Below, piece by piece: positions 1 to 63,029 of a stretch of DNA of 64,000 nucleotides; position 1 is the first letter of the stretch, and the number at the start of each line of letters is the position of its first letter. The translations under genes were made by a program, and so were the position numbers. Below the pieces are notes generated by a model. The model saw only the letters and a list, made by a program, of their open reading frames with translations. It was not told the origin of the DNA and ran no database searches. Location: positions 1-64,000 of IMG/VR virus record IMGVR_UViG_3300009170_000006; one strand, written 5' to 3'. This DNA comes from a virus.

Positions 1-3000
1 CTACCATTTTCAACATAAGTATTAGTTATGTTAAATATTCCTGTAGGTATCTCAGTATCTCCTGTTACTGGTTTAATAAAAGGTTGCTCATAAATATTAT
101 TTTCAGCATCAGGCAAGTTAGAAATATCAACTTTTAAGTTATCCCCTCTATTTCTTAATTTTGCTTTACCTAAACTGTTTTCAGCTTCAAATAACTTTTT
201 TAAGCCACTAAAAATTGTATCAGGATCAGTTGTTTCAATCTTCTTAATAAACTTTTCAGCAGCTTTTTCCATTATACCTTGATACTTTTCATAAGGCATC
301 ATGCTAGCTAAAGAAAACTTACTTGAGTTCATACCTGATTGTAAGAAAGCATAAACAGGAAGATTGTTAAAAAACTCACTTATATAAAGATTAGCTTTAC
401 CATCACTGTATTTTTTACTAGTTAATTTAGGTTTATCTACATTAGCTAAATTTTTCCATTGATTAAAATACTCACTAATTAAACCTTCATCAAGATTCTC
501 ATAATTTTTTAATTGAAAGTTTAATACATCTCTATAAAGAGGCATGTTAGGTATACCTTGAGGCATAAACTGTTTTAGCATTGAATACTTAGTAAGATCA
601 CTCATTTCAGGATAGTTTGTAATAATATCCATTAATTCTGTAGCTATTGTATTGTCACCAGATCTAAATAACTGCCATATGTTATAAGTGTTAGTTAAAG
701 CTTTATTAGCTAACATGTCCTCATAAGTAAGGTTATTTAATCTATTAACATATTCTTCATTAGTTTCTTCATCTGTTTGTTTATACTCTTCAATATTAGA
801 ATCTTTTAATCTCTTTCTTCTGGTAAGAAACTCATTTGTATCAACAACATCTTCAAGACTATTTCTTTTTCTTAAATATTCTCTTTCTAAACCAAACTCA
901 ATAAAATCAGTTCTTAGTTTTTCATTAGGAATAATGTAAGTCTTATCATCATCTCCCATTTTTACTATACTTGGAAATGCTTTGCCATTGATAGGAGTTA
1001 AACCTCTACTCTTATAAGAATTTACATCTGTACTACTAGATAAATATAAAGCCTTATCAAAATCTTGATTAAGTTGTTCTAAGAACTCAGGATTAATAAC
1101 TTCATTATTATATTCAGTATCTCCAGACTTATAAGCTCTTAACTCATTAGCAAAGATATACTGAGAAATAAAGTTTTTAAACTTAGTTATATAAGTTTCA
1201 CTGTCATACCCTGTAGCTTTTTTTGCTGCAGATATAGCTTTTCTATCTTTAAAAGTTCTAATAAGAAAGTTGTTTAACTGAGCATCATCTCTTAACTTAA
1301 ATAATCTACTGAATAACCTTCTAGCAAATTCTTGTATAAAGTAAGGAGATATGATACTATCTGTAGATAGTTTTTGTATTGGTTCAGGATCTAAACTTGG
1401 TGTATTCATAAGACCAGCTACACCTTCAATTTTTGCTTGAGCTGAATATAAATCACCAGTAGGCTTAGTATCAGGATTCATTTCTTTTTTCATTGCATCA
1501 TAATCCTCAATAATTTTTTCTACATATAAGTATTCTAAGAAGCCAGCTACTTGATTTTTATCATTATAGTTTAACTTTGATTGTACTATTTTTTCAAGAG
1601 TTTCTTTAGTAAAACTTGTAGGAGTTTTAAAATAATCTAAAGCTGTCTTAATACCATAAAGATTACCTATATTCTTAGTAAGAATAAAAGATTCAGCATC
1701 TGGCAAATATTCTGAAATAGTATTTAACATTTTAGGAGCTACATCATATTGACTACCAAAATTAAATAATTTTGATAATTTAGCTTTAGCTTTAGCTTTA
1801 TCTTTAACATACTGTCTAGTCATTGGATTAGATACAAAGTATGCTATACTTTCAATAGGCACACCTGCTTCTAATAAGAATAAAAACTTGGGCACTACTT
1901 CTGGATTACCTTGTAAGTAAGCTATCCAAGCATCTTTACCAGCATCCACAAAACCATTCATCATCTGATTAATGATATCAGCAATAGAATTTTTACCTTC
2001 TTTATCCATAATATGAGATAAAGATATAGCACCATCAAGTTTATTATAAGGAAGATTTAAGGTTAAAGCAATTTCTGCAAGTTGTTTATTCCATTTAGTA
2101 CTTGTAACCCATTCATTTGTTTTTTTATTAAAGTATCTTGTAGTTATAGGTACACTAGCTACAACATTCATAGATTTGTTCATTTTACCCCCTGCCATAT
2201 TAAGCAAGTTATTGATGTAGTTATCTACAGCAGCAATACCTAATGAGTCTTTACTACTAAAGTTTTCTTGATGTTTTTTAATATTGTAAGTCTCAGTATA
2301 AATTTTTGTAGGACTAATTCCTTTTTTATACATAGTTTTACCAGTCATTAAAGATTTGGTAAAATCAGTTTCATTATCAGCTTCTTGTATATAACCTTTT
2401 ATCTTATCAGCATAAGGCTTAACTAAGTTAGTATCATTTGGAGACATTAATGAAGCAGCTAGTTCAGGTAACTCAAGAATATTAACCATATCTTCAATTA
2501 ATTTATTCTGAAGACCACCTCCTAAGTTATTTGCATTATCATTAAGATCAGCAAGTTCACCATAAACTTTACTAAGTTCAGATTTATTATTATATAGTAT
2601 CCTTAAAGCTCCATCAACAGCATCAAGATCTTCTAATGTAATTCCTTTTATAGAGTATTCATAAATAAAAGCAGCTTTAGGAAAGAATTCTTTTACAAGA
2701 TTCTCTACACCGGGCTCATTCATAATTTTTATAATCTCTTTACTTTTAAAACTTGTAAGTGAATTTAATAAATCAGCATCAATATTTAAGCCTCTAGCTC
2801 TTATACTAACAGCTTTTCTAAAGTCATTAAGTTTAAGATTAACATCTAACCATTGAGCTTGTTTTTTATCTTTAAGTATTTCAATAGCTTCTTTAGTAAT
2901 TTTTAAATCTTCAAACTTTTGTTCTAAATCTTTTCTTTCTGCTTCAATTCCTTCTTTATCATACTTAGTCATTAACTTACCACTTTTAGTAAGGAATGGC

Positions 3001-5048
3001 ATGTATGTAGTCATCTTATCAACATCAAAGTCAGTACCTGATTTAGCTACAATCTCAGCAGGAATAATAATAACTGGTCCAGCCTCTGGTCTTAAGAACT
3101 CAGCTACTTCACCAAACTCCATAGAGTTATGCCCTTGTACTGGAATCCTTACACCTGTAAGTCTTAATTTTTTATTATTTTCATCATTACTTCTCCAAGC
3201 TTCAACTCTAAGCATTTCATTTAATCTAATAAAACTAGCATCAAAGTCAAGTTCTGGTTCCTCATCTTTACCTTTTTCTTTATATATAGCAATAGGTTTT
3301 CCTGAATTCACATATTTACCATCTTCATTAAGAATAAAGTAATCAGTTTGAAATAAATTTTCATCCATCTTACCAAGAGCTCTTTTGAACATAAAGCCAA
3401 TAGTTTTATTTATACCATCAGCTATATAAGATCTTAAACCATTAGTTCCAAAATCATCATATTTTTTTATTTCTTCTTTAGTAGGGTTTCTAAATTTAGT
3501 ATTTTGCATGAAGGCTGATGATACCTCTACTAAAGGTTCACCTTTTAATTTGGTTTTAACTAATCTGTTATTAACCAAAGCCATAATCATTTTTTCAAAT
3601 CTAGCAGCTAAAGGACTATTACTTAGATCTAATTTAGTAGTATTTGATGATGAATCAAATGCTTCTCTTTCATGTACACTAAAGCCTTGTCTTTCTAGTT
3701 CTTTATCTAAAACTACAAGCATTGACTTAATTTTAGCATCATCTACATTTTCAGCATATAAATCATCTTCTGTCCAGCCTAGTTCTTCAAGTAATTCTTC
3801 TTTTTTAAACTTTACATAATCATCAATACTATTTTTAAATTCTTCAGTATAGTCATGAAATTTACTTTCAACTCTTTTGTACTTAACTTTAGCCCAAGCT
3901 GCCTTTGCTTCTTCAGGACTGTTAAAGTTATTAGCTTTAATATAATCTGTTGGTACACCATAAGCATACAATAAACTAGTTATTAACTTACGTAACTGAG
4001 TTGAGAATGTAGATTGTTGTTTAAAGTAAGTATTAACTGCTGTTTGGTTTTTTAAGTAAGCAATATAAATAGTATTTGGTGTAAAAGTAAAGTCAGTTTT
4101 AAGATTACTTGTATCTCCTTCAAATATAGAATCTCCAGTACTTTCAGGACTAGACTTTATATGTGATCTTTTAGAACCAGATGTGAATGTAATATAATCA
4201 ATGTTTTGAGAAATCATTGCTTTATGTAAATTATTAGCAGGAAAGTCTTTAATAACACTTGGTATTAATGGAAATAATGAATATTTATGAAAAGCTTGTA
4301 TAGGAAATCTACCAACTTCTGTAGCAAGAGGTCCATTGTATTGTAATTTATATACAGGGAACATGTTGTTTAATTCAGTAGCAGTAATTGTTTCTCCATT
4401 TATAACTCTAAAGTACAAAGCATCTTGTTCATCTGACCAGTTACCTTCAGCTTGTCTAAGTATTCTATAAGTATCAAAAGTAATTAAAGCTTGACCATCA
4501 GCATCTTGAATGTCAATAAAGGCTTTCATTTTACCACCTTTAAATACATTACTATATTTACCATTTTCATCAACCTCAGCATTACCTGGCTTACCTGTTC
4601 CAGGATCAACACCATATAAAGCTACATTAATTTCATTATCAGTTAATCCTTTATCAGTATAATCTCTTTTAAATAAATCTCTATACATAGTAAAGTAAAC
4701 TGAAGTAACTTCACTTTCTTGTATAATTGCTGAATTAAGAGTAGGACTATAAGTTCTTACTTCTTTTTCTGCAATAATCTTATCAGCTATAAGTTTTTGT
4801 TCATAAGGTCTTCCTACTTTAGCATCAATAAAGATCTTAGTTAATTTATCTACTGGAAATATAGTACCTCCAGATTGAGAACCAGGAGCTCTCTTACTCA
4901 TCTCATCTTTAGTATGATCAAATTGAAAGCCATCTCCTTGTAATAAAAAAGTAGTTTCAGTCTTATGTATAAAATTATTAAGCATGTAAGATCTTACAGC
5001 TGCTTTTTTAATATTCAACTCTACATCTAATGGAGTAGCTCCATAAAT
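1..5048 (-). CDS. virion RNA polymerase, catalytic region (partial, runs off left edge)
   Basis: The frame is open from the window edge to a TAA at 5058-5060 and encodes more than 1,670 residues. About residue 673 it reads AEIVAKSGTDFDVDK (DFDVD at 3018-3032). This matches the DFDxD metal-binding motif of the double-psi beta-barrel in crAss-like virion RNA polymerases (phi14:2 gp66) and YonO-type polymerases. The polymerase is known to travel in the virion and to transcribe early genes after ejection. The upstream gene lies in the same frame, separated only by the TAA. No ATG lies near the start: the A-rich leader points to an ATT codon at 5048, and the first in-frame ATG is at 4985 (SYMLNN). 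Identification of the polymerase is firm; the start is uncertain and the C-terminus is missing. Confidence 0.85.
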   Translation of the reverse strand, partial: MYGATPLDVELNIKKAAVRSYMLNNFIHKTETTFLLQGDGFQFDHTKDEMSKRAPGSQSGGTIFPVDKLTKIFIDAKVGRPYEQKLIADKIIAEKEVRTYSPTLNSAIIQESEVTSVYFTMYRDLFKRDYTDKGLTDNEINVALYGVDPGTGKPGNAEVDENGKYSNVFKGGKMKAFIDIQDADGQALITFDTYRILRQAEGNWSDEQDALYFRVINGETITATELNNMFPVYKLQYNGPLATEVGRFPIQAFHKYSLFPLIPSVIKDFPANNLHKAMISQNIDYITFTSGSKRSHIKSSPESTGDSIFEGDTSNLKTDFTFTPNTIYIAYLKNQTAVNTYFKQQSTFSTQLRKLITSLLYAYGVPTDYIKANNFNSPEEAKAAWAKVKYKRVESKFHDYTEEFKNSIDDYVKFKKEELLEELGWTEDDLYAENVDDAKIKSMLVVLDKELERQGFSVHEREAFDSSSNTTKLDLSNSPLAARFEKMIMALVNNRLVKTKLKGEPLVEVSSAFMQNTKFRNPTKEEIKKYDDFGTNGLRSYIADGINKTIGFMFKRALGKMDENLFQTDYFILNEDGKYVNSGKPIAIYKEKGKDEEPELDFDASFIRLNEMLRVEAWRSNDENNKKLRLTGVRIPVQGHNSMEFGEVAEFLRPEAGPVIIIPAEIVAKSGTDFDVDKMTTYMPFLTKSGKLMTKYDKEGIEAERKDLEQKFEDLKITKEAIEILKDKKQAQWLDVNLKLNDFRKAVSIRARGLNIDADLLNSLTSFKSKEIIKIMNEPGVENLVKEFFPKAAFIYEYSIKGITLEDLDAVDGALRILYNNKSELSKVYGELADLNDNANNLGGGLQNKLIEDMVNILELPELAASLMSPNDTNLVKPYADKIKGYIQEADNETDFTKSLMTGKTMYKKGISPTKIYTETYNIKKHQENFSSKDSLGIAAVDNYINNLLNMAGGKMNKSMNVVASVPITTRYFNKKTNEWVTSTKWNKQLAEIALTLNLPYNKLDGAISLSHIMDKEGKNSIADIINQMMNGFVDAGKDAWIAYLQGNPEVVPKFLFLLEAGVPIESIAYFVSNPMTRQYVKDKAKAKAKLSKLFNFGSQYDVAPKMLNTISEYLPDAESFILTKNIGNLYGIKTALDYFKTPTSFTKETLEKIVQSKLNYNDKNQVAGFLEYLYVEKIIEDYDAMKKEMNPDTKPTGDLYSAQAKIEGVAGLMNTPSLDPEPIQKLSTDSIISPYFIQEFARRLFSRLFKLRDDAQLNNFLIRTFKDRKAISAAKKATGYDSETYITKFKNFISQYIFANELRAYKSGDTEYNNEVINPEFLEQLNQDFDKALYLSSSTDVNSYKSRGLTPINGKAFPSIVKMGDDDKTYIIPNEKLRTDFIEFGLEREYLRKRNSLEDVVDTNEFLTRRKRLKDSNIEEYKQTDEETNEEYVNRLNNLTYEDMLANKALTNTYNIWQLFRSGDNTIATELMDIITNYPEMSDLTKYSMLKQFMPQGIPNMPLYRDVLNFQLKNYENLDEGLISEYFNQWKNLANVDKPKLTSKKYSDGKANLYISEFFNNLPVYAFLQSGMNSSKFSLASMMPYEKYQGIMEKAAEKFIKKIETTDPDTIFSGLKKLFEAENSLGKAKLRNRGDNLKVDISNLPDAENNIYEQPFIKPVTGDTEIPTGIFNITNTYVENG

Positions 5049-5057
5049 ATTATTTTT

Positions 5058-8000
5058 TTATTTTGCATTATTTGCTAAATCTTTTAAGATAAGATCTTTT
5101 AATATTGCAGGTAAAGGTTGATCAACTCCAAAAATTGGATCAAATAAATCTTTATTATAACTTTCTTCTAGCTTATCAAAAAACTTAACAATATTATTAT
5201 CTAGTTGTTTCTTTAATGCTGGATTATCATTTAATACTTTATATAAGTCACCTTGCTCATTTAATTTTTCAAATATTTCTTCAGACTTTAAAGCCTCTTT
5301 AAGACCTGGAGCACCATCAAGTATCTCATCAAAAATGTCAAACTCAGTACCTCTTTCAAATCCTTTAATATTGTTATAGTATTCAGGGTCAGCTTTAATC
5401 ATTGCAATTCTTCTGATCTCACCTTCTAACTTAGGATATAGCATATCTAATACTTTTTGCATTGGATTATACCCCATTATAGATTTACCAGCAGCATCTT
5501 TCATAAAAGCTACAGTATCTACATATAAACCTTTATTTATTTTTTCATCATAAGTATTAATAATATCAACTTTAATTCCAAAGTTAGAACTTTTATCACC
5601 AGCTTGAATTCCATCCATATAACCTCCACCAAGAGTAGAAATAAATACAGATAATGTTTTATCTAAAAAACCCATTTTAGCACTAGTAGTACCATCACTA
5701 ACAAAAGTTTCATCTATATAACTAACACCACTAAGATCACGGTAGTTAATATCATTATTCTTAATTTTTTCATTTTCTCCAACAGTAGAGAATAAAGACT
5801 TTATAATAATAGAACCTTTTGTTAAAGGATTACTTCTAGGATTAAGAAAGTTCATGTGAACAAGTTCAGGATTATTTGAATATAAATCTCCTTGTTTATT
5901 AGCTTTTTTAAGACCATTTATTTTTTGAGTATCACTACTGTTAAGACCAAATAAAGATTTTAACTTTTTAGCAGCATTAAATCTCATAGAGTTTGCATAT
6001 TCTGTAGAATAAGTAGCTTCTATTTCAGCTAACTTGTTTACAGCAAAAGCATTTTTAGGAAGTTTTGTACCATTGCTTAATGTTCTAGCTTTACCTAAGT
6101 AAGCAACAATATTATCAATTTTTTGTATATCATTTTCTTTTACTGCTTGACTATTACTCTCTTCAGTTTTACCAATAGCATCAGCAATAAAGTCTATATC
6201 ATTAGGTATAAGACTATCTCTAATTTCTGAAATATCAGATAAGTATAAACCAATACTATTTAAGAAAGGAATATAGTTTTCTCTTGAAACACTATAAGTA
6301 TTTTTATTTTCATTATTTACTCCTTTAATAAGATATCTACTAGCTACAGCTTCTAAGTCTATATAATTAACTTGATCTTTTTTATAAGTAAAGCTATCAA
6401 TTTCTTTTTGTTGAAAAGCTAAAGGCCAATCAGTATTTACAATTCCTAGATATTCTGCAGTTGTTTTACCAACTCTTATTTCAGTAGGTTTATCTTTATA
6501 TTCTTGAACAATAGCAACAACTTGATCAATTTTATGCAAGTTAGCAGATTGTACAAATTTCATCCATAAAGATCCTATATCACTGCCTTGTCTAAACATT
6601 TCACCTATTGAATCTTCTGGAGAAAGCATTTTGCCATCTTCTGTTTGTTGTACATATATTTTACCTAGTAATTGTTTGAACAAAGGAGATACAGTATCTC
6701 CAGCAAGTTTAAGTTTGTTAAATAAACCTAGTACAGAAGTTTCACCTGAAGCTTTATCCATTAAAACTCTCCAGAAAGGTAAAAACTCAATTGGTTCAGC
6801 AAACCCTAATTCATTTAATTCAGCTTTTCCATCTTTAGTTTGTTTAGTTAAACTTTTTATTACATATAATACTAACTTATTAGCTAATTTTTCTGAAGCA
6901 ACATCATTACTAGAAGCATCAAGACTTGTAGCTAACTCTTGTTGAGCAGTATCACTTGTTTCTTCATAGTCATCACTATCTTTTTCATCTGCTATAGGTT
7001 TGAATGTAGAGAATAAATCTTTAAATGTACTGTTATTTTTATGAAAAGACACAACTGAAACATCAGAAGTTTGACCAGCTAATGCTTTATTAATATTTCC
7101 AAAAACTTCATCATCAACAGCTTTAGTTAATAAAGTAATTTTATCATTGATAATAGTTAAGGCTTGTTCATCAGTAGGAGCAAGTTTAGATCTTTCAGCA
7201 GTTAACTCAATTATTCTATCATTAAGTTCTTTCTTTGCTCTATTATAAATATTAGTTAAAGCATTTCTACTTGAGAATACTTTTGTTACTGCACTAAACT
7301 TACCTTTTCCAACTTGTTCATTTACAAATTTAGATAATATACCATCAATAGTTCTAGTTAATAATAAACCTTCAGATATAGTTAAGTTTTTTTCAGCATT
7401 GCTTGTTATAATACCTCCACTATTTAATGAACCAAACTCAGCATTTTTTAGATTAGCTGCATATGGTAATAGGTCTTTAGAAGATTTAGCTGTATACAAT
7501 GCCTTAAACATGTCACCTAAGACACCTTCTGAACTTGTATTAGAATATACATCAGAATTCCCTACTAGAGCTTTTAAAGCTTTCCATATTCTATCAAATA
7601 TTCTACCTAATGCAGTCTTTGCTTTAGAGTTAGTTTTAAACTTGCCACCATTCATAGCATACTTTCTAAATTCTTCAGCTATAAATTCTTCTAGTACTAA
7701 TCTATCTTCTCTCTTATTTACATCAAGATCTTTAAAGTTTAAAGTAACCATTCTATAAGAAACACCACCACCGGGTTCTACAAATTTCTTAACAACATTA
7801 AAGCTGCCTGGAAGTTTTGATACAGGTTTGTATAACAACTCAGTTCTTTGATCTTTAGTTAAATACACCTGACTAAAAGCATGCCAACTCTCATGATAAA
7901 CTTGAGTAAAACTAGCTCCTTTAAATAAAGTAATAGTTGAATTACTAAAATTGGCCCATGCATCAGAGTTTACAACATTTCTTAATAAGGATAGATTGAA

Positions 8001-9923
8001 AAGAGGTTTTCCAGCACTATCCACTTCTTTAGCCAATGCTGATTCTTCTCTCCACCATTTTTCTGCTCTAGCATCTTGTTTAGGTGTAGCAGAGTTCTCC
8101 ATTAACTTAGAAGCTTTTAACTCATCAAATAAGTCTTCTTCTTCAGTATTAGTTACTGGTATGTTTTCAGCTACAGTATTAGCTCTAGTTTCAATTACTT
8201 GTTGTTTAACTTCAGCTTGAGTTAACTCAGCTTCAAATCTTAAATAACCATTTGATACCATTGGTAACCCTGTATTCTTATCTCTTACAACTCTAGGTGT
8301 AAACTTGTTGAATATAAATGGTTTATAAGCTAATTGATTATTAGCAACTATTCTGTAACCAACTGCTGTATCTTCAATGGTATATTTAGTATATTGTTGC
8401 TTTGTATAAAGCTTATCATTAAAATGAATATATACACTATTAGTAAAGAAGTCTTTAAGCATTTGCTTAGATAACTCTTTATTTTCTAAAGGTACAGCTA
8501 CATTATTAAGATTAATATAAAGTTTTTTATTATTATCAGTTTTTATACCAATAATATAAGGTAAAAGTTTTGCATCAGATTCAGTACTATCTCTATAAAG
8601 ATTAATAAATTGACTAACATATTGTTCTTTTTCTACATCAGTTAATCCAACATCTTCAGTAAGTACAGTTATAAGATGATCCATTAATTCAGGATCTTGA
8701 TTACCAAGAGTTGTTGAATTTTTTAATGTTATTAAATTTTCTGCAGTATAAAACTTAACTGCTGGTAAAGTTCTTGTAACACCTTTTAATACTTTTCTTA
8801 CAAAAACTACATTTGGATCAAAAGAATCTGCATCAAATTCTGATAAAGTAGCTCCTCCTTCTTTTTGTTCTTTCTCTGTTAAAGTATCTAAGTCTTGAGC
8901 TACTCCAACTGAGCCTCCAATTAAATTAACTATAACAGGACCATTACTTAATTTATTTTTAAGATTTGTAAGATCTTCAGCATCTTTTGCAATTTTTTTA
9001 TCAATTTCTTGTTCTTCCTCAGCTGTTAAATCTTTAATATTTTTAAGTATACTATTCTTAATTTTTTTATTATTTGCAACACTTACTGCTTTTAATACAA
9101 AGTAAATAGCTTTACCTTTATTAATATCAGTAATTTTATGATTTTCATCAAAGTACATTACTTCACCTTGATTATTTGTTAAAGCAAGTACAGGTACTCT
9201 GCTTTTTGCAAACTGTTCTCTATTAGCTCTTCTGGTTCCTAGGATGTCATATTCATACATAACTTTTCCTTTGAAACCTCTATGCTCATCATATTCAAGT
9301 TCTGTAAAATCTTGGTCAGCACTTGTTCTAGCTAATAAAATCTTAGCTAAACCATCTTGATAAAAAGCTTTATCTGCATCTCTAGCTGTTCTACTAGAAA
9401 TAAGTTTACCATTTACTTTTTCTTCTTCAGCTGTTTGTTGAGCTGTTACACTGTATCCATCAACAGATAAGATATTATCTATAGCAAGTTCTTCTGAACC
9501 TTCTACTTTAAAATAAATCTTATCTTGGTTTGTAGCTTGTTGAGCTATTACTTTTTCTACTTCTTCAATACTTGTATTTTCTATACCTAGTAAAGTAGCA
9601 ATAGCAGCCATTTTATCTTCAGCTTTCTTTAAAGTATTTATATCTTTAATTAACTGAGTTGAATCATAGCCTTTTTCTACAAGCTCATTTTCACTAAACT
9701 CAGGATTATTTCTTATTGTATCAAAGATAATTTGAGGCACATGATAGGCAATACCCAATGATTGTTGAACATCATTTTTTGCACCTGCTACTTTTTTCTG
9801 AATAGTAATAATTATATCTTTATAATTAAACTTTTCCTCATTTAAAAGTTGACCTTCAATTAAAAGGTTTACATAATTTTCAAGATTCTCTTTTAAATTA
9901 TTTTTACTTAAATCACATACCAT
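5058..9923 (-). CDS. giant virion protein upstream of the RNA polymerase, with HExxH motif
   Basis: This 1,621-aa protein starts at an ATG 1 base after the upstream stop (TAATATG), so it is probably translationally coupled. At residues ~677-681 it has HESWH inside YHESWHAFSQVYL, followed about 70 residues later by EEFIAEEF. This is the zinc-ligand pattern of gluzincin-type metalloproteases (HExxH plus a downstream Glu). The remainder is helical and Lys/Glu-rich without a domain I recognise. It ends in TAA and the polymerase frame continues in phase beyond it, so the two may be halves of what is one chain in relatives. Protease activity is inferred from the motif only. Probable role: virion cargo ejected with the polymerase. 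Confidence 0.75.
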   Translation of the reverse strand: MVCDLSKNNLKENLENYVNLLIEGQLLNEEKFNYKDIIITIQKKVAGAKNDVQQSLGIAYHVPQIIFDTIRNNPEFSENELVEKGYDSTQLIKDINTLKKAEDKMAAIATLLGIENTSIEEVEKVIAQQATNQDKIYFKVEGSEELAIDNILSVDGYSVTAQQTAEEEKVNGKLISSRTARDADKAFYQDGLAKILLARTSADQDFTELEYDEHRGFKGKVMYEYDILGTRRANREQFAKSRVPVLALTNNQGEVMYFDENHKITDINKGKAIYFVLKAVSVANNKKIKNSILKNIKDLTAEEEQEIDKKIAKDAEDLTNLKNKLSNGPVIVNLIGGSVGVAQDLDTLTEKEQKEGGATLSEFDADSFDPNVVFVRKVLKGVTRTLPAVKFYTAENLITLKNSTTLGNQDPELMDHLITVLTEDVGLTDVEKEQYVSQFINLYRDSTESDAKLLPYIIGIKTDNNKKLYINLNNVAVPLENKELSKQMLKDFFTNSVYIHFNDKLYTKQQYTKYTIEDTAVGYRIVANNQLAYKPFIFNKFTPRVVRDKNTGLPMVSNGYLRFEAELTQAEVKQQVIETRANTVAENIPVTNTEEEDLFDELKASKLMENSATPKQDARAEKWWREESALAKEVDSAGKPLFNLSLLRNVVNSDAWANFSNSTITLFKGASFTQVYHESWHAFSQVYLTKDQRTELLYKPVSKLPGSFNVVKKFVEPGGGVSYRMVTLNFKDLDVNKREDRLVLEEFIAEEFRKYAMNGGKFKTNSKAKTALGRIFDRIWKALKALVGNSDVYSNTSSEGVLGDMFKALYTAKSSKDLLPYAANLKNAEFGSLNSGGIITSNAEKNLTISEGLLLTRTIDGILSKFVNEQVGKGKFSAVTKVFSSRNALTNIYNRAKKELNDRIIELTAERSKLAPTDEQALTIINDKITLLTKAVDDEVFGNINKALAGQTSDVSVVSFHKNNSTFKDLFSTFKPIADEKDSDDYEETSDTAQQELATSLDASSNDVASEKLANKLVLYVIKSLTKQTKDGKAELNELGFAEPIEFLPFWRVLMDKASGETSVLGLFNKLKLAGDTVSPLFKQLLGKIYVQQTEDGKMLSPEDSIGEMFRQGSDIGSLWMKFVQSANLHKIDQVVAIVQEYKDKPTEIRVGKTTAEYLGIVNTDWPLAFQQKEIDSFTYKKDQVNYIDLEAVASRYLIKGVNNENKNTYSVSRENYIPFLNSIGLYLSDISEIRDSLIPNDIDFIADAIGKTEESNSQAVKENDIQKIDNIVAYLGKARTLSNGTKLPKNAFAVNKLAEIEATYSTEYANSMRFNAAKKLKSLFGLNSSDTQKINGLKKANKQGDLYSNNPELVHMNFLNPRSNPLTKGSIIIKSLFSTVGENEKIKNNDINYRDLSGVSYIDETFVSDGTTSAKMGFLDKTLSVFISTLGGGYMDGIQAGDKSSNFGIKVDIINTYDEKINKGLYVDTVAFMKDAAGKSIMGYNPMQKVLDMLYPKLEGEIRRIAMIKADPEYYNNIKGFERGTEFDIFDEILDGAPGLKEALKSEEIFEKLNEQGDLYKVLNDNPALKKQLDNNIVKFFDKLEESYNKDLFDPIFGVDQPLPAILKDLILKDLANNAK

Positions 9924-52365: not shown

Positions 52366-55134
52366 CTATTTTTTCTTTTTATCACTTTTGCTTTTCACAT
52401 CAAATTTATTTTTATTTTCTCTAGCTATATCCATATCCATTTGCTTCATTCTCATATCTGCTTGCATTTTTTCTCTTTCAATTTGAGCTTTCTCTCTATC
52501 ATTAGTCATTCTATTTGACTCTTTAGAGCTTTGTAAGTTCATAGTATCTTGAAATTGTTCAGACTTTTGAATTTGGGCAAGAGAATCCATATAATCAGAT
52601 TGCTTGTTTTCATTAATATCCTGCATAGCACCAAAGCCTGCAGACTTAATCTCAGCAACAAGGATATCTTTTCTTCTATCTTTCTCAGCCTCTTGCATTT
52701 TAGAATCAAGATCAAGTTGTTTTTCTTGAAGTCTAGTTTGCATTTCTTGCTGTTGCATTTCTTGTTCATGCTGCATTTGCTCTTGTCTTTGTTCTGTAGA
52801 CTTTCTTTCAATAGATTTTAAAGCATTTGTAAGCTCTCCTAAAGATTCAGTTTGCATAATATTACCAAGATCATAGATAGAAGCACCAGCTGTGTTATTA
52901 GATACAGCTAAGTTTTTCATTTGTTCTAGTATAGCTCTTTGATTAGCTTTAGTTGTACAGTAAATGTTTATGTCTCTAAGTAACAAGTCAGTACCATTCA
53001 TCTCAAAATTAACCTTCTCATCTGTAGAACTCATGTATTGAAGTCTTAATGATGGTTTCTTTGAATGATAGTATTGAGCTAAGTCAGTTCTCATTTGGTG
53101 TACTCTTGGCATTAGGTAATCTGAATGCTGCATAAAGTATACTTCTGTTTGAGCATAAGAACCAGCCATAGCTTGTTCTACTCCTTTAGCTGTATCAGTT
53201 TGACCTATTTGTTGTCCAAGTCTCTGAGGAGTGATCCCTATCACTTCAAAGCACTGTTGTTTAAAATAGTTAGCCATTTGAATCCTAGATAACATTCTTT
53301 GAGTTTGCTCTAAGTTCATTACTTGAAAATGTTGGAAGTTTAAAGCATTCTCTGTATTGTTAATACTTGTATCAAGTGGTAACATTTGAAAGTTCTTCAT
53401 TGCAACATAAGCTTTGGCCAAGTTATTCTTACCCCAGTCTTCACCTAATGAATGTTGAGGTAATGCATTTTGATCTAACATAATTACAGTACCTAATTCA
53501 TCTACTAGGATATCTGCAATTTGATTATTAACAATGTTGTACCCTATTTGAAAAGGCTTCATTAAATCTACCATAGAAGTAGATCTTGTATTTCTATCAT
53601 TAAATACAGCTCCTTCTACAGGAAGTTTACAACCATAAAGAGTATTATCTCCTTTAAATTGGAACTTTAATGGCCCAATAGTATTTCTATCAACACCTAA
53701 GTACATAGGATTAATACCACCTGGGTTGTTCATACCCCAAAAAGATGGATGATTAGGTCCAATTTTTACACCACCCCAAACTTGATTAATCCATACCCAA
53801 TCAATATGCTCACCAAAGATTAAGTTATCTTTAGTTTTATTCTTGATTAATGTAGTATCATAAATAGGTTTATCAGTGATCTTATATTCTTCTCCAATGA
53901 TGTCAGTTATTACTTCACCTTCTTCATTAATTTTAGTTAAGTGTCCAACTTTTCTTTGAGATTTCCAATATGCTGTAGTTGCTCTTAATAAAAAAGCTGC
54001 ACCCATAGGAGCATAATCTTCATTCTCTGACATGATCCAGTTAACAATATCTCCACCATTGTAGATAAAGTTATCATACATAGATACAAATTGTCTGTAG
54101 GCTAAGCCCGGCATGTTAGTATTAAACTCATGAGACTTAGTAGCATCATAGTAAGATCCATCATTTTGGTAACCTTGTAATGGATAACCTGCAGATCTTA
54201 CAGGATAAATTGCTTCTATTGACTCTAACTGTTCTTGAGTCATCAAGTAACCATACTTATCAATAACATCAGCAATAGTTAACATTTCAATTTTACCTAC
54301 CCAGTTTCCTTGAGATATATATCTTGCATCAGGTGACTTATGATAGAATGTAGTTACAGGATTCCATAACTCTACGTCATAATCATCTTCATTCATCTTC
54401 ATGTGCCAGAACTCACGGTCAGTAATAAGCATATCTCTAAACCCTCTTTCCTCAAGTTCATCCATTCTAAATCTATCTTCATCAATCTTAAACTGATGAG
54501 TAGCCCATTGTTCACATAAGCTTTTATAACTTTTATCAAAAAAGTTTTGTATTTCTGGTAAAGATTTAAGAGCTTCTGGAGAAGTTTGTTGTTGCATTTG
54601 TTGTTGAACTTCAGGATCTTCCGGATCCATACCTTGATCTATCATCTTAGCCATAAGCTTTTGTTCAGCTTTTTGCATTAAGACTTGTTCAATTTGTGAT
54701 CTTTTTTCTTCAAGCATCTCATTATGAGAGTACTCATCTACACCACGGAAGGTAATCTTAGTATTTCTTTTAGCAAACTCAGCAACTAGTACATTAACCA
54801 CATTTGGGATAATAGGATAGAACTTAAGCTCTAAAGCACTAGCATCTTCTTGAGCTAAAGAGTCAACTATGTCTCTCATCTCATTGTCAGCTTCTACAAG
54901 ATAATCAGTTTTATCAATAGTACCTTTAGCTAGTTTGTAGTTTTTCATTAACCTTCTAGCATTTCTTCTGATCTGTTTAAGGCCATTCCACTCTAACCAG
55001 TCAAGATTCCAGGCTGTCCACTCAGGATTTTTATCTTTCTTTGATAAAAACTGCAGAGGCTGTGTAATAGAACCCATTCTATTATACTCGGCTTTCTTGC
55101 CTGACTTCATCTGCATTGCATTAAGAACTTGCAT
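52366..55134 (-). CDS. portal protein
   Basis: A 922-aa protein directly after terminase (6 bases) and before the scaffold. The N-terminus is basic and helical, the middle is the mixed wing/stem/crown type seen in crAss portals (EDRFRMDELEERGFRDMLIT, then NPVTTFYHKSPDARYISQGN), and the ~130-residue C-terminus is a Gln/Glu/Lys-rich coiled coil ending in TAG. It forms the head vertex ring for DNA entry and exit. The length is typical of the group. Confidence 0.8.
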   Translation of the reverse strand: MQVLNAMQMKSGKKAEYNRMGSITQPLQFLSKKDKNPEWTAWNLDWLEWNGLKQIRRNARRLMKNYKLAKGTIDKTDYLVEADNEMRDIVDSLAQEDASALELKFYPIIPNVVNVLVAEFAKRNTKITFRGVDEYSHNEMLEEKRSQIEQVLMQKAEQKLMAKMIDQGMDPEDPEVQQQMQQQTSPEALKSLPEIQNFFDKSYKSLCEQWATHQFKIDEDRFRMDELEERGFRDMLITDREFWHMKMNEDDYDVELWNPVTTFYHKSPDARYISQGNWVGKIEMLTIADVIDKYGYLMTQEQLESIEAIYPVRSAGYPLQGYQNDGSYYDATKSHEFNTNMPGLAYRQFVSMYDNFIYNGGDIVNWIMSENEDYAPMGAAFLLRATTAYWKSQRKVGHLTKINEEGEVITDIIGEEYKITDKPIYDTTLIKNKTKDNLIFGEHIDWVWINQVWGGVKIGPNHPSFWGMNNPGGINPMYLGVDRNTIGPLKFQFKGDNTLYGCKLPVEGAVFNDRNTRSTSMVDLMKPFQIGYNIVNNQIADILVDELGTVIMLDQNALPQHSLGEDWGKNNLAKAYVAMKNFQMLPLDTSINNTENALNFQHFQVMNLEQTQRMLSRIQMANYFKQQCFEVIGITPQRLGQQIGQTDTAKGVEQAMAGSYAQTEVYFMQHSDYLMPRVHQMRTDLAQYYHSKKPSLRLQYMSSTDEKVNFEMNGTDLLLRDINIYCTTKANQRAILEQMKNLAVSNNTAGASIYDLGNIMQTESLGELTNALKSIERKSTEQRQEQMQHEQEMQQQEMQTRLQEKQLDLDSKMQEAEKDRRKDILVAEIKSAGFGAMQDINENKQSDYMDSLAQIQKSEQFQDTMNLQSSKESNRMTNDREKAQIEREKMQADMRMKQMDMDIARENKNKFDVKSKSDKKKK

Positions 55135-55140
55135 ATTTTT

Positions 55141-57342
55141 TTATTTTAAATTTTTAAATGGTGTTCTTGGTGGTCTTCTATCACTTCCTCCAGAATTCTT
55201 TCCCATATGTCTGAAAGGGCTGTTAGTAAATTTATACAAATTTTTTGAATTATCCAAGCTTTTTTTACCTGTATCTTCAAATCTTTTCATTACTCCTCTG
55301 TTTGCTTCTTGCACTTTTGCAAAAGCAATTAATGCTCCTAGTGCAATTAACCTATCCACATTGAGTCCATCTCTATAATGTTGCATTTCTACCATAGCCA
55401 TTATATCAGGAATTCTCTCAATGCCATATATAGTTTTATATATCTTTCCATCTTCTCCAACTTCGGTATCTAGTTCTTCTCTACAGAAATCTACAAGATA
55501 AGGAAGCATGTGAGCTCTAAATATACTACCTGTATTTCTCCAACCATATTCTTGATATGTAGAATTAACATACTCAATATCTTTTCTAAAGGTCATCTGG
55601 TCTTTAGGAACCAGATACTTCTGTTTTTTCTTTTTAACCATATGAGTGATAAATCCAGGAACATTGCTTTCAACTAATGTCCAAGCATTATACCACTCAA
55701 TGATATGTTCTAACCTTTCATGTGTCTTATTAACATCATCAAACCTTCCACACCAAGAAGCTACAATCTTATCTTGTTCTACATGAGTAGTTACTTCATG
55801 AGCATCTTTTCTAGTTACTTCAACTGGAATCTTATATACATAAATTGAACACAAAGAGTCTGAACTAGTAGTCTTACCTTGAGCCACCGGGTCAATAGAA
55901 GCATAATAAGTTCCCCATTTAGCATCTTTAATAGGCCTCTCATAAACTACAATCACACCTGTTTTATCTTCAGTATTCTTAGTAATAGGAAATTCAGTAA
56001 TAGGAATCTTTCTACTTTTTTCTGCAACAAAACTACCATCAGCATTCTTGTTAAGATCTATAAACTCTGTTACATAATCTTTTTCTTCAATTCTCCTCTT
56101 TTGAGCAGCAACCAGATGACTAGGAAATATGGATACAGTTCTTGTAGCAAAAGCCTCTTCAATATTTCTAGGATGCTGAGACAACTCTAATTGATATTCT
56201 TCCGGAGCTAAATCTTTTTTCTTTCTATCAAAGTATTCATCTAGCATTTTTAAAGCTTCCTCTACTTGAGAATTACCAAACTCATCCACACATGGTGGCA
56301 TTGACCATTGCTCAGGAATAAATAAGCCAGATCTACCAAAGGTATCTTTAGCATCAAGCAAGTTAGACTCTACATAAAATATATCATTAGCTTCTGGATG
56401 TAAGATCATCTTTCTTAATGGATCACATTGATCAAGATCACCCACTGAACCTGCTGCAATAAATGTACCTGTTGTAATCATACCAGATTTTAAAGCTGGC
56501 TTCATATATCCAAAAGTCTCATTCATCTTAGGAGCAATTCCAGCCTCTTCATGAAAGAAGTAAGTACACGGCCCACCTACACCTGCAGTTGCATCTTTCT
56601 CAAAAGATGTTCCTTTAAGCACACCTTTCAAACCTTTATTAGTTTTTCTATTTTGGCCAGGTACTGAAGTCTCAATTTGCTGTTGCCAATCAAGAACTTT
56701 TCCTGGATTCATAGGTCTATACCAAGCAGTATTATCATCCAAGAAGTTTCTGTATTCATTTAAGAATCTCCAAGTATCATTTACATATGTCTTAAGACTA
56801 GCTCCTATTTTTAAAATAGGTGTTTCTTCAAACCATATAGCATTAATAAGTTTAGCTGCATGAAAGTATGAAGAAGCAATCTGTCTTTTCTTTAGGATAG
56901 CCACATGCTTATAAAATAATTCTGCTAAGACTTCATACAAAGCCATATGATACTGAGCATCTCTAATATCAGGAAAAGAAAACTTTCGTATTTCTTTATT
57001 GTTAATTGGTAGGAAGTTGAGCCACATATAGTACTCTCTAGTGAGGTACCAAGTTTTTCCTTTATTCTTGTAGATAACTCCTTTTCTACATCTGGTTTTT
57101 TGTTCATCCCAATAAGTAATATAATCTTTACTCTTTACAGGAGCAGCTACATAAAATTTAAAATCATTATATTTATTAGCTTCTTCTCTAAAGACAATAG
57201 AAGTTTCATCAAACTCATATTTACCCGGTTCTTTAAATACAGACAATACAAAGTCTCTAAACTCAGTTCTAGTTGAAAAACTTGTAGTAGTCCATGTACC
57301 ATTATCCCAGGTAGGTATATCAGTATAGAAGAACTTATCCAT
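55141..57342 (-). CDS. terminase large subunit
   Basis: A 733-aa protein. A Walker A-like segment is at residues ~150-164 (LKKRQIASSYFHAAK, degenerate), and Walker B plus catalytic Glu is YFFHEE at ~261-266. The RNase H-like nuclease has ASIDPVAQGK (D484) and VESN (E558); a last Asp lies in the C-terminal motif GLNVDRLIALG. It packages DNA through the portal using ATP and cuts the concatemer. It overlaps the small upstream gene by 8 bases. Confidence 0.9.
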   Translation of the reverse strand: MDKFFYTDIPTWDNGTWTTTSFSTRTEFRDFVLSVFKEPGKYEFDETSIVFREEANKYNDFKFYVAAPVKSKDYITYWDEQKTRCRKGVIYKNKGKTWYLTREYYMWLNFLPINNKEIRKFSFPDIRDAQYHMALYEVLAELFYKHVAILKKRQIASSYFHAAKLINAIWFEETPILKIGASLKTYVNDTWRFLNEYRNFLDDNTAWYRPMNPGKVLDWQQQIETSVPGQNRKTNKGLKGVLKGTSFEKDATAGVGGPCTYFFHEEAGIAPKMNETFGYMKPALKSGMITTGTFIAAGSVGDLDQCDPLRKMILHPEANDIFYVESNLLDAKDTFGRSGLFIPEQWSMPPCVDEFGNSQVEEALKMLDEYFDRKKKDLAPEEYQLELSQHPRNIEEAFATRTVSIFPSHLVAAQKRRIEEKDYVTEFIDLNKNADGSFVAEKSRKIPITEFPITKNTEDKTGVIVVYERPIKDAKWGTYYASIDPVAQGKTTSSDSLCSIYVYKIPVEVTRKDAHEVTTHVEQDKIVASWCGRFDDVNKTHERLEHIIEWYNAWTLVESNVPGFITHMVKKKKQKYLVPKDQMTFRKDIEYVNSTYQEYGWRNTGSIFRAHMLPYLVDFCREELDTEVGEDGKIYKTIYGIERIPDIMAMVEMQHYRDGLNVDRLIALGALIAFAKVQEANRGVMKRFEDTGKKSLDNSKNLYKFTNSPFRHMGKNSGGSDRRPPRTPFKNLK

Positions 57343-57545: not shown

Positions 57546-58058
57546 TTATTGATCATAAGCTAAAGAGCCTCCACCTCTTGTTCTAGTTTGTTGTTCATCT
57601 TGTAAATCTTTATATACTCCTTTGTAAGATTGTCTTACAGAGTCAAAATCTTTTGCTATTCTTAGTAAAGCTGTAGCAGATCCATCTCTACCAAAAGTAG
57701 GTTTAGTCTCAGCCATTACCTGGGCCATGTTATCTAATGCTATCTTAATACCTACATAAGCTCTTGAAGTAGGAGACTCATGTAATTCTTTACATCTTTT
57801 TAATGCTTCCATAATTAAGTCATCTTCACAAAAGAAATTAGCATTTACATCTTTAAGTATTGTTTCTTCTTTCTCTTCTTCAGGCATATTAAAATAAGGA
57901 TTAAGATCCTCATTAGGACATGTCATATAAAATAAATAAGCATATATGGCCATATGATCTTCAGGGTATTCATCCATTACATCCTTAAGAAACTTTATTG
58001 TGTAACAATGTTCAGTAGGTATAATCACTCCATTACTTAAATCAAACAGTTTTATCAT
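57546..58058 (-). CDS. small helical protein, possible terminase partner
   Basis: A 170-aa helical protein (FLKDVMDEYPEDHMAIYAYL, then AYVGIKIALDNMAQVMAETK). The tail is Gly/Arg-rich (QQTRTRGGGSLAYDQ). Its position two genes before the large terminase makes it a candidate for a small terminase or other packaging factor, but I see no clear DNA-binding helix-turn-helix. The start overlaps the 58-aa gene by 17 bases. Confidence 0.5.
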   Translation of the reverse strand: MIKLFDLSNGVIIPTEHCYTIKFLKDVMDEYPEDHMAIYAYLFYMTCPNEDLNPYFNMPEEEKEETILKDVNANFFCEDDLIMEALKRCKELHESPTSRAYVGIKIALDNMAQVMAETKPTFGRDGSATALLRIAKDFDSVRQSYKGVYKDLQDEQQTRTRGGGSLAYDQ

Positions 58059-58218
58059 TTTTTATTTTATTTAGTTTAGTACAGAACAAGTCTTCTTTTA
58101 TAGTATCTACAAATTCAAATTTAGCATAAGTTATACACTTACCATCTTTGTCTTTTTCTATACAAATTTTTAGTTCATCTTTCCAAAAATTCAAGTGTTG
58201 AAACTCATCATTGCTCAT
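58042..58218 (-). CDS. 58-aa acidic/basic microprotein
   Basis: The ORF starts MSNDEFQHLNFWKDELKICI and ends NKIKNDKTV with TGA. It overlaps the upstream gene by 11 bases and the downstream gene by 17 bases, filling a gap otherwise lacking a gene. The chained overlaps are the main support. Function unknown. Confidence 0.6.
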   Translation of the reverse strand: MSNDEFQHLNFWKDELKICIEKDKDGKCITYAKFEFVDTIKEDLFCTKLNKIKNDKTV

Positions 58219-58495
58219 TAGTAATCTTTTTTATTTTTTTAGGTTTAGGTAATACTTTGCTTTTGTAAATATAATCAAATTCACCATAAGTTACATCTAA
58301 ACATAAGCTTAAACCTGACTCTAGGATAATTACTGTATAAGGTTCTTTTTCTCCATCAGTATCTAAAGATTCTCTATAATAACTAATATCAAAAATATTA
58401 AATGAGCATCTTGCAAATTGTAAATGCTCTATACCAAGATCTTCTTTCATCTTGCTATTCTCCATTACTAAATTAAATTCTACTATCTCTTTCAT
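58208..58495 (-). CDS. small protein of unknown function
   Basis: A 95-aa protein (MKEIVEFNLVMENSKMKEDL start; basic tail KPKKIKKITNEQ). I chose ATG 58495, one base after the upstream TAA with an A-rich leader. An ATG at 58513 would add 6 residues and overlap the nuclease gene. Mixed alpha/beta, with no known motif. Confidence 0.55.
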   Translation of the reverse strand: MKEIVEFNLVMENSKMKEDLGIEHLQFARCSFNIFDISYYRESLDTDGEKEPYTVIILESGLSLCLDVTYGEFDYIYKSKVLPKPKKIKKITNEQ

Positions 58496-58496
58496 A

Positions 58497-59315
58497 TTAT
58501 TTTTTATTATCATTTAACCAATTGATCATTGCAATAACTTCAGACTTCATATAAGGTGTTTCATATGGTACAACAGTTTTAACTATTGGATTACCTTCAG
58601 AATTTTTTAAAGGAATTGGGTTACCAAATTTATCTTCACCCTCTTTCTCAAAAATTACATGATGTAACATAAGTTTACCTGCTTTATATCTTGGGTTATG
58701 CTTTAACATAATATACATATAAATACTTAATTGTAAGGCATAATGATTATAGTTACAATCATCAAGATGAGCTAGAGGTCCAGACATCTTAACTGATTTA
58801 CCTTCCCAGTTTACAAAGCTTGCTACCTTTATTTCTTTGTTAGTTTTGTAGTCAATGATATCTATAACATCCTTAACAACTTCTACTCTATCTGATTGGC
58901 CACATACTCCTGCAGATTTTAAAAATACAAAATGCTCTGGATAGATTCCTTCAGTAAGTCTTTGTACAGGAGCTTTCTTAATTTTACCCTCCCATATTGG
59001 TTTGATAATAGGGATATTTATCCCCTGTCTTTGTATAGTATCAATACTCATAAGATCAGATTCTCTTTGATCATGATACCAAGATCCAGCTGTTATAGCT
59101 CTATCAGTTTCACTTAACCAATGACCCTTTATTTCTTCAGGATCTAAACCATACCACTTAGATTTCTTATTCTTAGAAGACTTAATTGCTTGAGCAGCAG
59201 CATCAAACTTTTGTTTGAACATTGCCACAAAACTAGTTACACTAGTCCATTCTATTCTATCATCAGGATCAAGACTTTGATACTTATGATTTTCTGCTTG
59301 AAATATTACTGACAT
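58497..59315 (-). CDS. PD-(D/E)XK family nuclease
   Basis: A 272-aa protein with the RecB/Cas4-like series: H81 with E84 (GSWYHDQRE), D142 (CGQSDRVEV), D155-x-K157 (IIDYKTNKE) and Q195 (HYALQLSIYMYI). This fits PD-(D/E)XK exonucleases that act on DNA ends. crAss-like phages carry such a nuclease near terminase, where it may trim or repair packaging DNA or degrade host DNA. It starts 7 bases after a 36-aa membrane peptide gene. Confidence 0.8.
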   Translation of the reverse strand: MSVIFQAENHKYQSLDPDDRIEWTSVTSFVAMFKQKFDAAAQAIKSSKNKKSKWYGLDPEEIKGHWLSETDRAITAGSWYHDQRESDLMSIDTIQRQGINIPIIKPIWEGKIKKAPVQRLTEGIYPEHFVFLKSAGVCGQSDRVEVVKDVIDIIDYKTNKEIKVASFVNWEGKSVKMSGPLAHLDDCNYNHYALQLSIYMYIMLKHNPRYKAGKLMLHHVIFEKEGEDKFGNPIPLKNSEGNPIVKTVVPYETPYMKSEVIAMINWLNDNKK

Positions 59316-59322
59316 GTTAAGT

Positions 59323-59433
59323 TTATTTAAAAAATTTTGATATTAATTGTGCTATATAAACAGGTATGCAAAGTATAGTAGTTATGATTGGTTTAAATAA
59401 TAAAGCCACAACTATTAAGATAACTAAACTCAT
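59323..59433 (-). CDS. 36-aa membrane microprotein
   Basis: The ORF begins MSLVILIVVALLFKPIITTI and ends LISKFFK. It has two short hydrophobic stretches around a Pro, or one long TM helix. The ATG overlaps the previous stop as ATGA and the TAA lies 7 bases before the nuclease start, so the spacing is gene-like. It could be a small membrane effector or a second holin-type peptide; function unknown. Confidence 0.5.
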   Translation of the reverse strand: MSLVILIVVALLFKPIITTILCIPVYIAQLISKFFK

Positions 59434-59708
59434 AATGTTTCAATTTTCCATCTAGGACCATCAGGATGTGCACACTCTGATTCAAGTGATCTTAGTTTCA
59501 TAGATAAACTACAGCCACATGCTGAACAACAAGGCTGTGTTCCTACTAGCATACATGAAGTTCCTACAGTATCCATAAGAGGACAACCATCACAGATCTT
59601 CTTCCTCTTGTTGTATATTACTTCTATTGGATCTTTCTTGAAGATCTTGTTCTTGAACCCCTCCCATATTAGGGCTTTGTTCTTCCATATTGTTTTCAAG
59701 TTTATCAT
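59430..59708 (-). CDS. small Cys-rich zinc protein
   Basis: A 92-aa protein. Residues ~38-66 have CDGCPLMDTVGTSCM then PCCSACGCSL, seven or more Cys in CxxC pairs suited to zinc ribbons, with a further Cys near the C-terminus (ECAHPDG). The N-terminus is Lys-rich helical and overlaps the HU-like gene by 119 bases in another frame. It ends by ATGA overlap with the next microgene. Possible DNA- or RNA-binding accessory. Confidence 0.65.
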   Translation of the reverse strand: MINLKTIWKNKALIWEGFKNKIFKKDPIEVIYNKRKKICDGCPLMDTVGTSCMLVGTQPCCSACGCSLSMKLRSLESECAHPDGPRWKIETL

Positions 59709-60063
59709 TTTTTCTCTTTTCTTTTTTGTTGGTTAATCTATTATCTTCTACTGCTTTAAGTTCTTTAATAGTTTTTATTTTTTCTACTTTATCTTTAATG
59801 TCTTGTGCCATTTTATACTTAGAGAAATTACCTTCAATTCTTCCTAGTATTTGTTCATAGTGCTCTACTGCTTCATCTAACTTCCAATGCTTTACTTTAA
59901 AAGTTCCCAAACTGGGAATATTTATACTTGGATATGTTAAATCACTGATCTCTTTTCTTACACGTGTCCAATAAAAGTCTAATATTGAACATATCAATTC
60001 TTCTGAATAACCTGTATCTTCAGCAGTTGCTTTTCTAAAATCCTTAGCTTTCTTGGGTATCAA
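59590..60063 (-). CDS. HU/IHF-like DNA-binding protein
   Basis: A 157-aa protein. Residues ~11-65 follow HU/IHF: helices (SEELICSILDFYWTRVRKEI) then NIPSLGTFKVKHWK, the conserved strand of the DNA-binding arm. The C-terminal half is a long charged tail (KKEKRKNDKLENN, then EEEDL). crAss-like phages carry two IHF-family genes in this region. It overlaps the upstream gene by 20 bases and the downstream gene by 119 bases. Likely role: bending or compacting DNA in packaging or transcription. Confidence 0.75.
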   Translation of the reverse strand: MIPKKAKDFRKATAEDTGYSEELICSILDFYWTRVRKEISDLTYPSINIPSLGTFKVKHWKLDEAVEHYEQILGRIEGNFSKYKMAQDIKDKVEKIKTIKELKAVEDNRLTNKKEKRKNDKLENNMEEQSPNMGGVQEQDLQERSNRSNIQQEEEDL

Positions 60064-60457
60064 TGCAGTAAAGTTTATAATCTAATAATATGTTACCTTC
60101 AGTTTGAATCTTAAGATCTTTGTTTAGCTCAATTGTTTTATTATGACCTAATCCATCTTTACTAATAATATTATAGTTAGCCAACTTAGCCAGTGAATTT
60201 CTTACTGTCTGAGGTGTTTTAAATATTGTCTTAGTATGAGATAGAGTTGATTCTTTATCCTTGTTTTCAGGAGCACAACAAGCATTACAAAAATCTGATA
60301 ACTCTGCTTTTACATTGAGACCAAGAAGAGTAAGACAGTTAAGCTCAGAATCACTTATTGTTATTTTGTTTATATAACAATAGGTAATTATCTGAAACTT
60401 AATAATCTCATCTAAGGCCATAGAGACCTTCTTGTCTACTTTATTAACTTTTGCCAT
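60044..60457 (-). CDS. winged-helix-like protein
   Basis: A 137-aa protein. Residues ~80-105 (IFKTPQTVRNSLAKLANYNI then ISKDG) look like a recognition helix followed by a wing. The N-terminus is helical with a CNACC cluster. The ATG is preceded by AAACCAAC. It heads the run toward the HU-like and terminase genes. A transcription or packaging regulator role is plausible, not shown. Confidence 0.55.
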   Translation of the reverse strand: MAKVNKVDKKVSMALDEIIKFQIITYCYINKITISDSELNCLTLLGLNVKAELSDFCNACCAPENKDKESTLSHTKTIFKTPQTVRNSLAKLANYNIISKDGLGHNKTIELNKDLKIQTEGNILLDYKLYCIDTQES

Positions 60458-60480
60458 GTTGGTTTAATTGACTAATTTAA

Positions 60481-60774
60481 TTAAGCTTTCTTTAATTTTC
60501 TTTCTTTAGGTTCTTCAGTAGGAGGTGCAGGTGTTTCTGAAGGTTCTTCTTCCTCTTCTTCTTGTTGAGGTGCAGCCATCTGAGCTTGTCTCATGATCAT
60601 GGTCATTCTCTTAACTCTTTGTTCTTCAATATCAGCTAACATAGTTTCATATGCTAACTGAGCTTTGAGTACATAGACTTGTTTCTCATAGTATTTTACT
60701 AGATTAGTTCTTCTTTGCTCCAGTTGTTCTGGGGTAAGATTCTCTACTGTCTCTTGGTTGGTTTCTTCTGACAT
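60481..60774 (-). CDS. small coiled-coil protein
   Basis: A 97-aa protein: residues ~15-65 are a coiled coil (RRTNLVKYYEKQVYVLKAQL), then an acidic Pro-rich tail (QQEEEEEEPSETPAPPTEEP) and a basic end (KERKLKKA). It is preceded by a promoter box and by an AAACCAAT leader. Likely a structural or assembly partner; no family recognised. Confidence 0.6.
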   Translation of the reverse strand: MSEETNQETVENLTPEQLEQRRTNLVKYYEKQVYVLKAQLAYETMLADIEEQRVKRMTMIMRQAQMAAPQQEEEEEEPSETPAPPTEEPKERKLKKA

Positions 60775-60799
60775 TGGTTTAAATTTTAAAAGTTATATG

Positions 60800-60807
60800 C
60801 AAATATA
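60800..60807 (-). promoter_or_regulatory. promoter -7 box for the packaging gene run
   Basis: The minus strand has TATATTTG within GTATATTTGCATA, an exact TAnnTTTG match, 25 bases before the ATG at 60774. It lies in the only sizable gap between the lysis genes and the packaging run. Confidence 0.6.
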
Positions 60808-60811
60808 CTTT

Positions 60812-60826
60812 AAAGTTTTAAACTTT
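60812..60826. promoter_or_regulatory. inverted repeat beside the promoter, operator candidate
   Basis: AAAGTTT-T-AAACTTT is a perfect 7+1+7 inverted repeat, 4 bases upstream of the -7 box, in the place where a bound protein would block polymerase. Chance occurrence in AT-rich DNA cannot be excluded. Confidence 0.35.
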
Positions 60827-60841
60827 CAAAATTTATTTTAC

Positions 60842-62262: not shown

Positions 62263-62277
62263 AATGTGAGTTTTAAA

Positions 62278-62814: not shown

Positions 62815-63028
62815 CTGTAAAAAAATTAGTTAAAAACTTACCTATTATACCTACTAATAAGGCAGTTCCAATCATAACTTTTAATTCATGATCTGTGTAT
62901 ATTTGTTTTAATTGATCAAAAGCTATCAAGCCTCCTGCACCAAATAGGCCGGCTACAGCCAATAAAGAATCTCCAACTTTTCTCCAGGTCCAGGGAGTTG
63001 GCTTTTTATAATTTTTCATTAAGTTCAT
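62798..63028 (-). CDS. holin candidate, two TM segments
   Basis: A 76-aa protein. TM1 is at ~23-38 (LLAVAGLFGAGGLIAF) and TM2 at ~50-68 (MIGTALLVGIIGKFLTNFF), with charged ends, the form of a class II holin that opens the inner membrane for the endolysin. It lies 1 base after the amidase stop (TAATATG) and overlaps the spanin-like gene. Two in-frame ATGs (63028 and 63019) are present. Confidence 0.75.
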   Translation of the reverse strand: MNLMKNYKKPTPWTWRKVGDSLLAVAGLFGAGGLIAFDQLKQIYTDHELKVMIGTALLVGIIGKFLTNFFTDEKAK

Positions 63029-63029
63029 A

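Follow-up and report, generated by a model that had tools for sequence, protein, structure and literature searches.

The 64,000-nucleotide stretch of viral DNA analyzed here (the window; positions 1 to 64,000 of IMG/VR record IMGVR_UViG_3300009170_000006) carries at its left end a polymerase gene whose frame is interrupted by a single TAA, and the question is whether this codon divides two proteins, is read through, or breaks what is otherwise one chain. A first-pass annotation had reported a 1,621-amino-acid open reading frame (ORF) that ends in TAA at positions 5060-5058, with the same frame remaining open, active site included, to the left edge; all of this was confirmed. On the minus strand the junction reads ...AAT GCA AAA TAA AAA AAT AAT ATT TAT GGA GCT.... 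The upstream ORF (5058..9923, minus strand) starts with ATG, and 3' of the TAA the same frame continues for 1,685 codons without a stop, up to window base 1. The virus record (67,720 bases) also ends at this base, so that the C terminus of the polymerase is missing; by comparison with a relative, the missing part amounts to approximately 360 residues. The catalytic motif, DFDVD, occupies residues 676 to 680 past the TAA, and the catalytic core (past position 5057) is uninterrupted, the lone TAA cutting the chain just ahead of it. A scan of start-like codons past the stop found ATT at 5048, TTG at 5018, ATT at 5012, and ATG at 4985 in frame, in agreement with the earlier statement that the last of these is the first in-frame ATG. 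The features of the gene are collected in Table 1.

Table 1. Features of the interrupted polymerase gene, in window coordinates
Feature	Position	Strand	Basis
First 1,621 codons of the gene for the virion-type RNA polymerase (N-terminal part), with the HESWH zincin-like motif	5061..9923	minus	ORF with ATG start; 84% identity to the N-terminal 1,620 residues of L001
In-frame TAA; GAA in L001 and (by alignment) L004	5058..5060	minus	Sequence and comparison
C-terminal continuation of 1,685 codons, ending with the record; polymerase catalytic core	1..5057	minus	Open frame; match to 6vr4
DFDVD catalytic motif (DxDxD)	3018..3032	minus	Within the stretch aligned to the phi14:2 RNA polymerase
ATT once proposed as a start; judged to be Ile coding sequence	5046..5048	minus	Leader score 4.75 versus 5.66 in the unbroken relative; 36/36 genes start with ATG
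Out-of-frame ATG just past the TAA, with a good leader; 5 codons only (MELLH*)	5027..5044	minus	ORF and leader score
First in-frame ATG past the TAA; poor leader; within a conserved helix	4983..4985	minus	Score -10.5; model helix H171-202
HESWH zincin-like motif in the N-terminal part; HEAWH/HESWH in relatives	7881..7895	minus	Motif conservation

As judged from profile comparisons and a predicted structure, the product of this gene is a virion-type RNA polymerase of crAss-like phage. The polymerase itself had no match in PHROGs or Pfam; however, a profile of nine relatives matched the virion-packaged RNA polymerase of the crAss-like phage phi14:2, whose structure is solved (PDB entry 6vr4; 6vr4_A), with an E value of 6e-21. 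A profile of 48 relatives did so with an E value of 1.4e-34 (hmmsearch), and its single aligned stretch, 6vr4 residues 689-1265, extends over the break region. The homology includes the catalytic DxDxD motif. Structure prediction with AlphaFold2 was applied to residues 1460-2440 of the nearest relative, L001 (IMGVR_UViG_3300042883_000874), and not to the broken window copy. The model used here came from a run with 48 sequences (pLDDT, 81.9; pTM, 0.77); a run with 9 sequences gave a pTM of 0.35. The model aligned with 6vr4_A over 650 residues (model residues 3..865) at 4.2 Å with a Z score of 18.9, and Foldseek returned the same structure with an E value of 3.2e-21; the break corresponds to model residue 162. 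In this model of the relative, both barrel domains lie in one polypeptide with the phi14:2 fold. The window polymerase and that of phi14:2 belong to the same family, with a common fold and DxDxD core, and the phi14:2 enzyme is a single chain across the homologous site. They differ in that the PDB entry for phi14:2 comprises 2,194 residues, whereas members of the window's polymerase family have 3,500 to 4,500 amino acids and include additional parts as well as a zincin-like HExxH motif, and in that the window copy has the in-frame TAA. The next structural matches were the two-barrel RNAi polymerases QDE-1 and RDR2 (Z scores of 12 to 13), aligned mostly from approximately model residue 193. They likewise hold a two-barrel catalytic core in one chain, but they are eukaryotic cellular enzymes, and the likeness is confined to the core downstream of the break.

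The genome around the gene has a portal, capsid, and transcription block of the crAss type. The portal gene (52366-55134) matches annotated crAss-like portals, and a major head protein and other structural PHROGs were found; on the strength of these matches we regard the genome as crAss-like. The best annotated portal match is that of the cyanobacterial Leptolyngbya phage Lbo-JY46, at 32% identity, which is closer than the portals of gut crAss-like phages; the polymerase of Lbo-JY46 was not found with the polymerase profile. The 101.9-kb contig of L001 is colinear with positions 1 to 57.3 kb of the window. Beyond the terminase-like gene (55141-57342), window positions 57546-63719 hold genes without a protein match in this otherwise colinear contig.

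In L001 the polymerase is a single ORF of 3,673 amino acids, to which the window sequence is 84% identical in the N half and 87% identical in the C half. Because the 1,685 codons past the TAA have this 87% identity to a protein that in L001 runs through the site as one chain, their open frame reflects more than chance. At the site itself, L001 has AAA GAA AAA AAT AAT ATT TAT GG and the window has AAA TAA AAA AAT AAT ATT TAT GG, with no insertion or deletion; relative to L001, the stop is thus one G-to-T change (GAA to TAA) at codon 1622. Two further relatives (L004 and L005; 68 to 70% identical) have a single ORF of 3,856 amino acids, and their aligned codon is also GAA, although adjacent gaps make this column less certain. 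A broader search by profile yielded 80 loci; frames were measured in every one of them, and the 55 relatives with sequence on both sides of the site were taken into an alignment. The first-pass annotation had asked whether relatives fuse the two ORFs: all 55 cross the site in one open frame, and none has a gene border there. In five reference crAss-like phages (cr108, cr110, cr111, DAC17, and ProJPt-Bp1) the polymerase also lies in one stop-free frame, with a profile match that stops short of the site in some of them. The sole other relative of the wider set with an interruption in this region, L090 (IMGVR_UViG_3300021963_000049), changes frame elsewhere (L090:9548-9556), at a GTGA overlap homologous to L001 residues ~2052-2099; this change may stem from an indel or an error, or may mark a true division of the gene with GTG as the second start codon. 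In another relative, L016 (IMGVR_UViG_3300042898_001439; L016:3666-12805), the polymerase is divided near its N terminus into parts of ~600 and 2,440 amino acids in different frames.

A true split polymerase, with its active-site half started separately at ATT 5048, TTG 5018, or ATG 4985, is on this evidence very unlikely. The first-pass annotation had proposed the ATT as a possible start, in the place where an ATG would normally follow the A-rich leader, and that leader is as A-rich as those of the real starts of this genome: on a position-weight matrix built from the 20-base leaders of 36 surveyed genes it scored 4.75, which is at the 39th percentile of real starts and above 99% of internal ATGs. 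A-rich leaders, with A at -3 and around -12, favor initiation in Bacteroidetes (PMC6847099), so that a weak restart past the TAA may occur; in addition, the cut precedes the conserved core. However, every one of the 36 genes starts with ATG, and the homologous ATT in unbroken L001 has the higher leader score (5.66), which argues that the A-rich stretch encodes Lys and Asn residues and is not an evolved leader. A non-ATG start at the ATT was rejected because its leader-likeness is common to the unbroken gene. The leaders of TTG 5018 (-8.7) and ATG 4985 (-10.5) score below those of all 36 real starts, and any restart would face competition from the out-of-frame ATG at 5044, which has a good leader (5.23) and would divert ribosomes into its five-codon ORF. 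No conserved border with a usable second start was found among the 55 relatives. For the same reason, an ordinary gene border between two polymerase subunits, the outcome to be expected if relatives had separate genes with this boundary, is extremely unlikely: the division of transcription genes does vary among crAss-like phages (PMC7886860), and L016 and L090 divide the polymerase region elsewhere, but at this site the 55 continuous relatives refute a border, and it lacks a plausible start codon. Readthrough, in which decoding of the TAA at some frequency would yield full-length polymerase together with the 1,621-amino-acid N-terminal product, is unlikely as well, although frame and sequence are kept past the TAA. 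The crAss-like phages offer precedents within the same group: reassigned TAG and TGA codons, suppressor tRNAs, introns, and inteins have been reported, along with stops inside the polymerase ORFs of some members and one phage whose TAA suppressor tRNA is not accompanied by reassignment of TAA (PMC7886860). These published cases, however, are reassignments of TAG or TGA, introns, inteins, or many disruptions per gene, whereas the window's polymerase gene has one TAA only and its genome follows the standard code and lacks tRNAs, and none of the reported signatures (reassignment, suppressor tRNA, intron, or intein) was found in this record. No tRNA gene was detected in the window or in the last 3.7 kb of the 67.7-kb record, which is itself incomplete; a suppressor tRNA may be supplied by the host. 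The contig of one relative carries a single tRNA-Arg (tct) gene, at L026:12178-12251. There was no match to Rfam families, and the RNA fold 3' of the TAA is unremarkable (z = -1.34), on which ground a stimulatory fold was rejected; an intron or insertion was rejected because the L001 alignment shows no insertion and the Rfam search was empty. TAA terminates 29 of the 36 genes, the polymerase gene contains no further in-frame TAA, and in-frame TAAs did not recur in other genes, 20 of which match L001 end to end without internal stops; a reassigned TAA code was rejected on the absence of other in-frame TAAs and the use of TAA as the main terminator. Moreover, none of the relatives has a TAA at the site. 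The split and readthrough readings of the first-pass annotation thus gained no positive support. That the TAA is both real and functional, setting the ratio of two products (a zincin-bearing N-terminal protein of 1,621 amino acids and either the readthrough enzyme or a separately started catalytic half), we consider decidedly unlikely.

The age of the stop was approached through comparison with L001. The dN/dS ratio between the window and L001 is 0.33 before the TAA and 0.26 after it. Lineage-specific amino acid changes, polarized with L004 as the outgroup, number 75 in the window and 79 in L001 before the TAA and 55 and 56, respectively, after it. By these measures, both halves of the polymerase are under similar purifying selection, and a long-standing pseudogene was rejected, there being no excess of change in the C half of the window copy. 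Since there is no sign of relaxed selection on the active-site half along the window lineage, we infer that the stop is recent, is not real, or is functionally bypassed.

Taken together, these data make it highly probable that the locus is one single-chain gene for a crAss-like virion-type polymerase (~3,670 amino acids) with a sporadic TAA at codon 1622 that is recent or not real. Within this explanation, a consensus or assembly error, in which the phage has a sense codon and nothing is broken, stands close to an even chance. The stop occurs in one record only and is absent from L001 and all other relatives; the record ends 5 kb away, still within the polymerase gene; L090 is broken at a different place, as would be expected of sporadic errors or mutations; and G-to-T changes are a common oxidative sequencing artifact. 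On the other side, the other genes of the record that were compared are intact: 20 of them (11,198 amino acids) align with L001 over >90% of both sides, so that the assembly is not generally poor, and a generally poor assembly was rejected as the cause. A real nonsense mutation, fixed or segregating, that leaves part of the population with a truncated and probably inactive polymerase is quite plausible, somewhat short of an even chance. One substitution suffices (of the 29,754 single substitutions possible in the corresponding stretch of L001, 1,655 create a stop), and the selection evidence makes the break recent, but strong selection against losing a virion polymerase would be expected. Of the three readings in the first-pass annotation, the recently broken single chain is accordingly favored; as to the cause, a consensus error, which that annotation had not considered, is about equally likely. 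Searches for further copies returned no near DNA match in the phage collection, no additional copy, whether with GAA or with TAA, in the viral collection apart from L001, and no second copy of the strain in the species genomes.

Under the single-chain explanation, a single substitution would have turned codon 1622 from GAA to TAA in this record, within the loop that joins two helices immediately ahead of the catalytic core. With a real stop, genomes that carry it would be expected to yield a 1,621-amino-acid fragment lacking the active site, and would rely on leaky readthrough, a weak restart, or coexisting phages of the population whose gene is intact; with a base-call or consensus error, the phage would make an ordinary single-chain polymerase. 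We infer these consequences, like the recency of the stop, from the present comparisons. Two points count against the explanation. A virion polymerase should be essential and a real nonsense allele costly, yet the TAA is the assembled consensus. In addition, the break falls in a variable loop upstream of the two-barrel core, where a cut would be less harmful than at most places. In the L001 model, helix 146-154 is followed by a short helix and a loop, and these by the long helix 171-202; residue 162 lies in the intervening part, in which model confidence falls to 72 to 76. The alignment columns around it are variable and gap rich, with a smoothed conservation at the 29th percentile of the protein. 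Because the catalytic core lies wholly downstream, in the C-terminal frame, the model suggests that a cut here would do less damage than most; such tolerance does not in itself show that a cut is used.

As matters stand, an automatic gene caller would report two proteins where there is one polymerase gene, and a lone in-frame stop in a phage genome from metagenomic data should be checked against reads or relatives before it is given a biological reading. Were the stop functional, it would represent a natural splitting of a single-chain two-barrel RNA polymerase and would be informative about the interconversion of one- and two-subunit enzymes.

The zincin-like motif lies inside the polymerase polypeptide, and HEAWH or HESWH is present in most relatives. 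In cr110_1, an adjoining separate gene is annotated as an RNA polymerase-associated protein fused to a zincin protease.
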